Assembly: GCA_024226335.1 (NCBI GenBank)
Contig: JAAELY010000488.1
Span: forward strand, 1 to 64,000
Direction: 5' to 3'
DNA: 64,000 nt
From: a bacterium
GTDB lineage: Bacteria; Myxococcota_A; UBA9160; SZUA-336
How positions within the stretch are numbered: position 1 is the stretch's first letter; each line of letters opens with the position of its first letter. Positions 24,747-27,437 of this stretch are shown piece after piece. The translations under genes and the position numbers were made by a program. The notes below the pieces were generated by a model. It saw nothing but the letters and a program-made list of their open reading frames with translations, ran no database searches and was not told where the DNA came from.

Positions 24747-25277
24747 ATGGCCGTTTTGATCAAGCGCTACGCGAACCGCAAGCTCTATAACACCGATTCG
24801 AGTCGGTATATCACGCTCAAGGGAATCTCCGAGCTTGTCCGCGAAGGCAAGGACATCTGCGTGATCGACAACGAGACCGGAGAGGAGATCACTCCGATCA
24901 TCCTCTCGCAGATTCTCGTCGACGATCAAAAGCAGAGCCGCGAGGATGGCTCGGGTGTACCCGGTCGCGTCCTGACCGAACTCGTTTCGCGCAGCAGCGA
25001 TGCGTTGTACAAGCTGGTGCGCCGCAGCATGGACGACGCGAATCAGAACCTGAACGAGGTTCGCGACAATATCCGCAAGTGGGTCAACACAGAAGATGAA
25101 CCTTCGGTCGACCTCGGCGAGGTCCAGCGCACGGTTCACGATGCGGTTGAACGCGTGCTGCGAGTTGCGGATCTTCCGACGCGTGCGGATCTGGAAGCGC
25201 TTAACAAGAATCTCGAGCGATTGTCGACTGCTTTGTCGAATTTCGAACGGCAGTTGTCGGAGCGTTCTGGTTCTTAG
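24747..25277 (+). CDS. phaR: PhaR-type polyhydroxyalkanoate synthesis regulator
   Basis: This 176-residue protein has the PHB/PHA accumulation regulator DNA-binding domain at its N-terminus ('VLIKRYANRKLYNTDSSRYI', then 'ISELVREGKDICVIDNETGE'). The last third is a heptad-like coiled coil ('RADLEALNKNLERLSTALSN'). PhaR proteins repress granule-coat (phasin) genes and bind PHA granules. No phaC or phasin is in this window. ATG 24747 starts the conserved domain; the upstream GTG 24729 extension is not conserved. Confidence 0.92.
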   Translation: MAVLIKRYANRKLYNTDSSRYITLKGISELVREGKDICVIDNETGEEITPIILSQILVDDQKQSREDGSGVPGRVLTELVSRSSDALYKLVRRSMDDANQNLNEVRDNIRKWVNTEDEPSVDLGEVQRTVHDAVERVLRVADLPTRADLEALNKNLERLSTALSNFERQLSERSGS

Positions 25278-25300
25278 TTCTCGGTTTGATTTTTCGTTGA

Positions 25301-25416
25301 GGTAGCTGAGTCGGTCGGACGCAAGCCCCTGCCGGTCGTGCTCCGCTCGCTTCGTGTGGACCTTGCAGCGCTCTTTGGTGGCTCCGAAACGCCCGGCAGG
25401 GGCTTGCGTCCGACCT
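25301..25416 (+). repeat. Stem-loop repeat element, copy 1
   Basis: This ~115-base element lies just after the phaR stop. It holds a perfect 23-bp inverted repeat (25313-25335 pairs with 25393-25415) around a 57-base loop, preceded by 'ggtagctgagtc'. The reverse complement of 26264-26377 is a second copy: the 57-base loop differs at 4 positions, and the stem sequences differ but still pair. Together the two copies bracket the PEP-CTERM-like gene in inverted orientation. I do not recognise this element; a REP/MITE-like family is the closest idea. Confidence 0.85.
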
Positions 25417-25468
25417 CCACGCCACGCTCCAATCTAGCGTCGAATTCCGGGTCTCCTGGCGACGGGAC

Positions 25469-26170
25469 TCAATCTCGACGATCGAGCAGGAGCGCAACGC
25501 AGGCGAGTGTGAGCATGACTGTGGCTCCCGCCTCTGGAACTGGGACCGTCAGGATCGCGGACAACGCATACAGACTCTCTAGATCGACTGATGGGTGTTC
25601 CGTATAGGCAGCCTGTATCCACGAGATACCCGGGTCAAAGGCCGCTCCAAGTGTCACCTTCGCCCCACCCAGCGGGAACACTGCAACGCCGGAGAAAATC
25701 GTGCCTGTGTAGACGCCAACACCTACAGGGGCGATGTTGCCATTGCTATCGACGCGTAACGGCGCATCAAGACTTGCGTCCCAGAGGTCGGCGTAGTCAT
25801 CGACTAAGCGGATGTCGTCCAGTCGGTAGATTGGAATGTCGGGAATAAGTGGGTCGGTCCCGGTGTGATCGCGTGCATCAACGGTGGCCGTGGAACCGAT
25901 GACCTGCCACGTCGTGCCTAGGGAACTCAGTTCGGGGACTGAGTTTGCCTCAGCGGTTACGAAGGCATCGTAGTCCGCGATATCCGCGGAGACTGCATTC
26001 CTAGTACCGACAGTCACGAAGGCCAGTCGGTATTGAGCGCCGGGTAGGAGGTCCGTGGGTGTTGTGATCGGAGTGGCGAAGCTCGGGGCGGCTGGAAGCG
26101 TGAGTGAGGCGATCGCGGTAATCGCGATGCAGATGCGCGACAAGCGGTGCCGAGGCGACGAATCAGCCAT
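25469..26170 (-). CDS. PEP-CTERM-like secreted protein of unknown function
   Basis: This 233-residue protein has an N-terminal signal peptide ('LSRICIAITAIASLTLPAA', then AxA-like 'SFA'). Its core of about 170 residues starts at 'GAQYRLAFVTVGTRNAVSAD' and carries 'ADYDAFVTAEAN', 'STATVDARDHTGTDP' and 'DDYADLWDASLDAPL', a module I associate with PEP-CTERM surface proteins. The C-terminus is a sorting tail: 'VPVPEAG', a hydrophobic stretch, then 'LLDRRD'. It would be handled by an exosortase, which is not in the window. The frame runs upstream through repeat copy 2; ATG 26170 at the signal peptide is the likely start. Base composition is lower in GC (53-58% in sampled rows) than its neighbours. 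Confidence 0.75.
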   Translation of the reverse strand: MADSSPRHRLSRICIAITAIASLTLPAAPSFATPITTPTDLLPGAQYRLAFVTVGTRNAVSADIADYDAFVTAEANSVPELSSLGTTWQVIGSTATVDARDHTGTDPLIPDIPIYRLDDIRLVDDYADLWDASLDAPLRVDSNGNIAPVGVGVYTGTIFSGVAVFPLGGAKVTLGAAFDPGISWIQAAYTEHPSVDLESLYALSAILTVPVPEAGATVMLTLACVALLLDRRD

Positions 26171-26263
26171 CGCCTTCCAGTGTACACCGGAAACGATCCG
26201 CCAATCCGTCAAATCCGTCAAACATCTCCACACGCCAAGAAAGTCCGGCAAAACGCAGCGGCG

Positions 26264-26377
26264 AGGTTGAAAGCAACCCCCGCCGGGCGTTTCGGAGCCA
26301 CCAAAGAGCGCTGCAACGCCCACACGAAGAGCGCGGAGCACGACCGGCGGGGGTTGCTTTCGACCGACTCAGCTACC
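26264..26377 (-). repeat. Stem-loop repeat element, copy 2 (inverted)
   Basis: This is the inverted copy of the element at 25301-25416. Its stem is 26265-26286 with 26344-26365 (22 bp, one mismatch, G-T compatible), the loop is 57 bases (26287-26343), and the flank 'gactcagctacc' is identical to the outer flank of copy 1. It lies 13 bases beyond the stop of the acyltransferase gene and upstream of the PEP-CTERM-like gene start. Confidence 0.85.
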
Positions 26378-26390
26378 GCAACCGCCGGAC

Positions 26391-27437
26391 CTATGAGAAT
26401 ACCGCAGGCCTCCGCCGCACCTCTTCCTCGAGCAAAGTCTGAACAGCACCCCGCACACGTTCCCGCGTCCGATTGACGTACAGCGGGTCATCCGCAGCCT
26501 CGGGTTCGACTGAATCGAAGTAGAAGGGCTCGCCGAAGCGGATGCGCCATTGACTGGGTAGTGGCACGAGTCCCAGTGGTCCCAGCAGCGGGAACGTCGG
26601 CGTGATCGGAACGGGAGTTCCGAGAATCCGCCTGGGCAGACGCGGCTGGAAGAGAATCGGATGGACCTCTTCGGCTCCGACGACGGCTACCGGGACGATG
26701 ATCGCGCGCTGTCGGACCGCCAGAGATACGAAACCGCCGCGACCGAAACGCTGCAGGCGATAGCGATCGCGAAACGGCTTGACCGCGCCTTTCTGCCCTT
26801 CGGGAAAAGCGATCACCGAGTCCCCCTTCTCCAGCAGGCGTTCGGCGTTGTCGCTCGACGCCCGAACACCTCCGATGCGTGCGATCGCAGGTTGCGTGAA
26901 GGGCAGAGTCATCAACCAGTCCGCAACCAGGAAACGCGGACGCTGCGCTCCGGGGACGTGCCTTTCGACAGTGCTTGCGATCATCAGTCCGTCGTAGGGA
27001 AGAATCCCGGAGCGATTCGACACGAAGAGCAGGCGCTCGGCCTGGGGAATGTTCTGGGTGTCGAAGGCCTTCACGCGGAACCAGCGCTCGTAGAGGAAGT
27101 CGATGTAGCGGCGCGCTCGGCGCAGGTAGCGTTCATCGAGTCCAAATTCGTCGACGACCGCCGACACGTCGCTCTGGCCGGGTAACGATGAGTGTTGCCT
27201 CAGCTCTTCGTACAACTCCACGACATCGAAGTCCCGAACGCGACCGACCATCTTGCGGCGCAGTCTCGCGATCAGACCCTCTTGTTCGATCTCCTCATCT
27301 TCCAGCTCGGGGTCGCCCTCTTCCACTTCCGTTGATCCGACGCCGAAGCGGCCCTCGAGTTCGCGTCGCAACGCGCTGATGGAGTCGCGCAACTCTTCGA
27401 ACTCGTCGGGCCGGGCGTCTTCTTCGCTTTCACTCAT
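26391..27437 (-). CDS. PlsC-like lysophospholipid acyltransferase
   Basis: This 348-residue protein has an acidic N-terminal region (1-55, 'EEGDPELEDEEIEQEG') and then a glycerolipid acyltransferase domain: 'NRSGILPYDG' (141-150) at the motif I position, 'RIGGVRASSDN' (motif II) and 'FPEGQKG' (motif III). Motif I has Arg142 where most PlsC enzymes have the catalytic His, a variant I also associate with mycobacterial Rv0502-type proteins. Acyl transfer to a lipid is likely but unproven given the substitution. ATG 27437 overlaps the SDR stop (ATGA). Confidence 0.85.
   Translation of the reverse strand: MSESEEDARPDEFEELRDSISALRRELEGRFGVGSTEVEEGDPELEDEEIEQEGLIARLRRKMVGRVRDFDVVELYEELRQHSSLPGQSDVSAVVDEFGLDERYLRRARRYIDFLYERWFRVKAFDTQNIPQAERLLFVSNRSGILPYDGLMIASTVERHVPGAQRPRFLVADWLMTLPFTQPAIARIGGVRASSDNAERLLEKGDSVIAFPEGQKGAVKPFRDRYRLQRFGRGGFVSLAVRQRAIIVPVAVVGAEEVHPILFQPRLPRRILGTPVPITPTFPLLGPLGLVPLPSQWRIRFGEPFYFDSVEPEAADDPLYVNRTRERVRGAVQTLLEEEVRRRPAVFS

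Follow-up and report, generated by a model that had tools for sequence, protein, structure and literature searches.

What is the segment of DNA that separates phaR from an acyltransferase gene in this bacterial genome, and did it arrive there as a mobile unit? The two outer genes are convergent, and a single gene lies between them, bracketed by two inverted copies of a structured repeat. In the first-pass annotation of the window (the whole stretch of DNA that was analysed, 64,000 nucleotides long), the segment was taken for a small mobile or recombination-prone cassette carrying a surface protein. The features of the locus are listed below in order of position.

24747..25277, plus strand: phaR (PF07879, E 1.3e-26), with its stop codon 18 nt from the L end.
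25296..25438, plus strand: the L end, a terminal inverted repeat consisting of GTTGAGGTAGCTGAGTCGGTCG, the hairpin, and about 20 nt of inner flank common to the copies, as seen in the seven-copy alignment.
25313..25415, plus strand: hairpin of the L end, with a perfect 23-bp stem and a 57-nt loop.
25368..25389, plus strand: invariant loop block of the L end, 22 nt (GCGCTCTTTGGTGGCTCCGAAA), identical in the seven good copies.
25469..26170, minus strand: the cargo gene, encoding a 233-aa secreted or surface protein with a C-terminal tail read as exosortase-type (VPVPEAG, a hydrophobic segment, and RRD).
26263..26382, minus strand: the R end, a terminal inverted repeat and inverted copy of the L end (model R1, 137.9 bits).
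26265..26365, minus strand: hairpin of the R end, its stem sequence unlike that of the L end, with pairing kept.
26290..26311, minus strand: invariant loop block of the R end, 22 nt.
26391..27437, minus strand: the acyltransferase gene (PF01553, E 1.4e-10), convergent with phaR, with its stop codon 8 nt from the R end.

The first-pass annotation described two inverted repeat copies, each just past the stop codon of its outer neighbour, and no transposase at the locus, and all of this holds. The L copy (25296-25417, plus strand) and the R copy (26263-26382, minus strand) are 88.5% identical over 122 bp (E 1.5e-36), and each copy is internally palindromic. Arms of 77 and 34 nt shared by the two copies were also recovered in a separate inverted-repeat search, and model R1 matches the L end at 25296-25420 with 138.5 bits. 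The palindrome arms are located at 25313-25339/25389-25415 in the L end and at 26265-26290/26340-26365 in the R end; in both copies the stem is 22-23 bp and the loop 57 nt. Fold z-scores of the hairpins range from -4.9 to -6.8, with none of 200 shuffles folding equally well, and folding is much stronger than in shuffled sequence on both strands. One 23-nt stretch of the loop is present at just two places in the whole window, the L and R ends, with none expected by chance. A GGTAG or GGCAG motif is found 5' of the stem, about 12 nt away. The exact ends of the cassette are uncertain by a few bases.

The same element is found elsewhere in the genome. There are seven good copies: two in the window, two in contig C529, one at the end of contig C94, one at the start of contig C157, and a single one in contig C494. 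An eighth, decayed copy exists in contig C79 (C79:8635-8750, 32 bits), giving eight copies in 5.75 Mb of genome. Six of the seven good copies are paired around cargo genes at three loci (window, C529, and C94/C157). In all three pairs the outer ends face outward and the cargo gene reads towards the L end. All three cassettes sit between convergent genes, and every copy (eight of eight, both single ones included) lies closely downstream of a stop codon, in the same orientation as the gene. Among 1.17 Mb of sampled genome sequence, just two pairs of inverted repeats measure 35 bp or more and are spaced 200-5000 bp apart, and these are two of the cassettes. Note that mobility is judged here within one assembly of 556 contigs, and that three cassettes are few.

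In C529, the same inverted arrangement surrounds a homologue of the window cargo gene. The two cargo genes have 66%, 49%, and 69-74% identity in three pieces, and the C529 gene has stop codons and is broken. The third cassette is split over C94 and C157, whose sequences share a 267-bp overlap located within the cargo gene. The overlapping ends (L021 end, L023 start) differ by about 1% and by a short tandem duplication of about 16 bp, which suggests strain variation inside this cassette.

Do related bacteria keep the insertion sites without the cassette? Together, phaR and the acyltransferase gene were located in 19 relatives, 7 from the same family and 12 from the class. In all 19 the two genes are convergent neighbours, and their stop codons are separated by -4 to 159 bp. 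Here the stop-to-stop gap is 1113 bp. Because the spacer is short in all 19 relatives, the window cassette is an insertion into a site that these relatives keep empty. A second empty site is found in relative G007, where the genes that flank the C94/C157 cassette (NrdJ, a small gene, GGR, and ETF-QO) are contiguous without it; this also supports the joining of C94 to C157. The gene pair next to the C529 cassette is not conserved in relatives, which leaves no empty site to point to there. In another relative, G004 (L081 2056-2220), the phaR-acyltransferase spacer is filled by a different palindrome of about 160 bp, which does not resemble the window hairpin in sequence. The spacer may be prone to insertion of palindromes.

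The segment 25296-26382 is probably a non-autonomous, transposon-like gene cassette with a single passenger and no transposase. According to this proposal, the two terminal inverted repeats of about 120-140 bp, each with a hairpin, enclose one passenger gene and would act as transposition ends. The unit of end, gene, and inverted end would have been copied or moved to at least three places in the lineage, with each insertion entering a short spacer where two genes converge. By analogy with mobile insertion cassettes, the unit would have been moved by a trans-acting enzyme that recognised the hairpin ends (stem and invariant loop). RecA-type recombination between the ends could in addition invert the gene; the assembly itself contains no sign of the opposite orientation.

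Mobile insertion cassettes, such as MIC231 of Bacillus cereus and mic-qnrD, have inverted repeats around a single passenger gene and no transposase; they are found at several places and are thought to be moved in trans (PMC3913671). The window, C529, and C94/C157 units resemble them in having a passenger between inverted repeats without a transposase, and in occupying several genomic locations, with both occupied and empty sites. However, the ends are about 120-140 bp here and contain a long hairpin, whereas mic-qnrD has 24-bp imperfect repeats (PMC3913671). The units described here also differ in that no target duplication is seen, no partner IS was identified, and the passengers are surface-protein genes. 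MITEs, including the CTAG-ended palindromes of the same genome, likewise have palindromic non-coding ends and no transposase. The window unit, in contrast, carries a gene between two palindromes, and its sequence is unrelated to the other palindromic families of the genome. Integron cassettes are another type of single-gene cassette. Their attC sites recombine as folded single strands, in which the structure is conserved while the stem sequence varies; these sites are single, in direct orientation, and arranged in arrays at the attI site. The likeness is that of single-gene cassettes with structure-conserved, stem-variable sites, but here each gene has two inverted copies, the sites are scattered, and no array is seen.

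In favour of the mobile cassette suggested by the first-pass annotation are the other copies paired around cargo and the empty sites in relatives; against it are the lack of a target-site duplication and of a matching transposase gene. No direct repeats were found outside the ends at any of the three cassettes, although such repeats may have decayed. The assembly yielded neither a transposase or recombinase gene with these ends nor an intact element with them. The unit now appears to be old and mostly immobile, because its ends differ by about 12-17%, the passenger in C529 is broken, and the end in C79 has decayed. No sign of activity at present was seen.

The single copy in C494 adjoins an IS-like end and a 24-aa transposase-like C-terminus, a fragment too short for any family model. 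A relative of this fragment in G001 has a similar IS end. The C494 copy may be a lead to the parent element and is not proof of it. The IS end itself, CTAGCAGGCTGCKGAAAAA, was rejected as the parent end of the cassette, since it is part of other palindromic elements and is associated with no copy of the repeat except the one in C494.

Outside the genome, model R1 finds no copy in 90 genomes of class relatives, and a DNA search finds none in 40 relatives. None is found in IMG/VR viral contigs or in plasmids and phages either. The exact 19-mer core of the loop, searched in GTDB r220 contigs, gives no structured copy and one match only, in a Bacteroidaceae MAG; this match was rejected, as the stem is absent. 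Other matches were rejected as well. A weak DNA match in a relative (L025) is coding sequence, an R1 match in C240 lies inside an enoyl-CoA hydratase-like gene and is attributed to chance, and an Rfam match is to a microRNA and is sub-threshold only.

The cassette ends look functional, judging from a co-varying stem and a conserved loop. Six stem pairs have changed on both sides with pairing kept, a level reached by none of 500 shuffles, and the signal is removed by sliding the partner; as it rests on seven related sequences, this co-variation is indicative. In the loop, 22 bases are invariant in the seven good copies, whereas the two related passengers differ by about 0.84 substitutions per synonymous site and the inner flanks of the ends vary considerably (see below). 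Template-switching correction of imperfect palindromes, which acts without selection, could be an alternative source of the stem co-variation.

The sequence common to the copies extends past the hairpin on both sides. When corresponding ends of different cassettes are compared, their inner flanks have 47-76% identity. In the inner-flank columns the L ends cluster with one another, and in the loop and outer columns there is partial clustering of the two ends that belong to the same cassette. The numbers are small, and the pattern is consistent with multiplication of one ancestral cassette whose ends were distinct, followed by some end-to-end exchange. In C94/C157 the two ends are closely alike. 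Statistics on conversion of L and R ends within a cassette are too thin, except in the case of C94/C157.

Could the hairpins instead belong to the host? They may be elements of gene 3' ends, that is, bidirectional terminators or RNA-stabilising stem-loops, with the cargo spread by homologous recombination between hairpins that existed beforehand. The position of all eight copies, close behind a stop codon and in the orientation of the gene, agrees with such a role; strong hairpins with co-varying stems are compatible with a function in RNA; and in one relative a separate 160-bp palindrome lies between phaR and the acyltransferase gene. However, eight copies in a genome of 5.75 Mb do not make a general terminator, and no U-tract terminator is predicted. 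Hairpins with stems of at least 18 bp are also rare in this genome (21 in 1.17 Mb, counted in a non-random sample of long contigs). In ten segments, 5 long hairpins are found in the real sequence and none in a Markov control, and the other long hairpins of the genome mostly belong to unrelated palindromic families, several of them CTAG-ended. Moreover, six of the seven good copies are paired around cargo, no paired hairpins without cargo were seen, and the common sequence reaches beyond the hairpin on both sides. A host origin of the hairpins is considered unlikely.

REP elements are palindromes of 20-40 bp with a GTAG-type tetranucleotide at the foot of the stem and a high copy number (PMC3733652, PMC2817692). 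A REP/RAYT-like or IS200/IS605-like origin, in which a Y1 (HUH) transposase in trans would read the hairpin ends as single-stranded DNA, is very unlikely for the cassette. Such systems typically have inverted pairs of extragenic palindromes, and subterminal hairpins that their transposase recognises (PMC3116915, PMC2817692, PMC6006769), and the pairs described here resemble REP/BIME/REPIN and RAYT loci in lying near convergent gene ends. The GGTAG or GGCAG motif 5' of the stem also recalls them, but this GTAG-like motif is about 12 nt from the stem and not at its foot. The 103-nt hairpin, with its 22-23-bp stem and 57-nt loop, exists in eight copies and contrasts with high-copy palindromes of 20-40 bp. 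A passenger lies between the pair, no RAYT gene was seen, and no copy flanks a Y1 transposase gene.

It is hardly credible that the unit is an invertible phase-variation cassette, in which the surface-protein gene is turned round by recombination of the inverted ends, with a switch in its expression: the inverted ends (about 120 bp, 88.5% identity, about 970 bp apart) are good recombination substrates, inversion via terminal repeats is documented for bacterial IS elements (PMC3004938), the C94/C157 ends are as closely alike as conversion between them would make them, and known invertible cassettes also have a surface-protein gene between inverted repeats, but there is no recombinase in the vicinity, any promoter would flip along since the upstream region of the gene is within the cassette, the flanking genes converge on the cassette and offer no outward promoter to switch, and neither the presence of the unit at three different places nor an advantage of flipping is explained.

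To return to the mobile cassette, what does it carry? The label PEP-CTERM-like, given to the cargo in the first-pass annotation, rests on the tail VPVPEAG-hydrophobic-RRD; the tail VPVPEAGATVMLTLACVALLLDRRD fits by eye, and the protein has no profile match among Pfam and NCBIfam models. The genome has two strong exosortase matches (PF09721, E 1.6e-50 and 2.7e-49), and the cargo is a probable exosortase-sorted surface protein. One of these matches (G000:C529:63355-64110) is about 3.4 kb from the C529 cassette, perhaps by coincidence. The low GC content noted for the cargo gene is only mildly true: the ORF has 59.7% and the window 63.1%, and 6.5% of 702-bp segments are equally low. Homologues of the cargo are found in cassette C529, in contig C34, and in G055, G084, and G085. 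No long inverted repeats bracket those in C34, G055, G084, and G085. Between the passengers of the window and C529, dN/dS is about 0.4 (a rough value from 185 codons, some of them from a doubtful alignment piece), implying that the cargo gene was under selection for part of its history. The synonymous divergence of this pair is about 0.84 substitutions per site.

The passenger of the C94/C157 cassette is a different one. It encodes a 277-aa protein for which no similarity to the window protein could be detected (E 0.13 for the best local match). Nevertheless, the DNA of the two cassettes has 80% identity over a stretch that starts just outside the hairpin and reaches about a dozen codons into the 3' end of the gene. 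The shared codons specify the last part of the hydrophobic segment together with the basic tail of the exosortase-type signal, as assigned by eye. The passenger appears to have been exchanged at least once.

A broader proposal is doubtful in its full form and is offered tentatively. The unit could represent a distinct class of bacterial gene cassette, in which long-hairpin ends with a conserved loop are moved by a putative hairpin-reading recombinase, and exosortase-sorted surface-protein genes are swapped via shared sequence that includes the C-terminal sorting tail. If the mobile-cassette reading itself is confirmed, single surface-protein genes would spread and be swapped within a genome without a transposase of their own, by means of ends that have a structure and are not just simple inverted repeats. 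A search for the enzyme would then have a concrete recognition site in the conserved loop and co-varying stem. The shared tail plus end suggests how different passengers may join one sorting system.

The genome has other palindromic and dispersed elements. A CTAG-ended, palindromic MITE-like family (CTAGGGAAYCTCTGCACAGGGAGG..., about 170 bp, 97-100% identity) has 18 matches in 1.17 Mb; examples in G000 contigs are L167:8507-8675, L160:5567-5737, and L203:1-169. Its members are often located at contig ends, and the family probably breaks the assembly. At L123 (G000:C297:8659-9790), a YdjC-like gene (PF04794, E 9e-44) is closely preceded by the end CTAGCAGGCTGCGGAAAAA and closely followed by a 156-bp MITE-like element that carries this end as well. 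This YdjC-like unit is possibly a second kind of passenger cassette. Beside the decayed hairpin copy in C79 is a small-gene unit (L184 7709-8518), which is repeated in C240:1-738 and partly in C295 and is another dispersed gene-bearing repeat.
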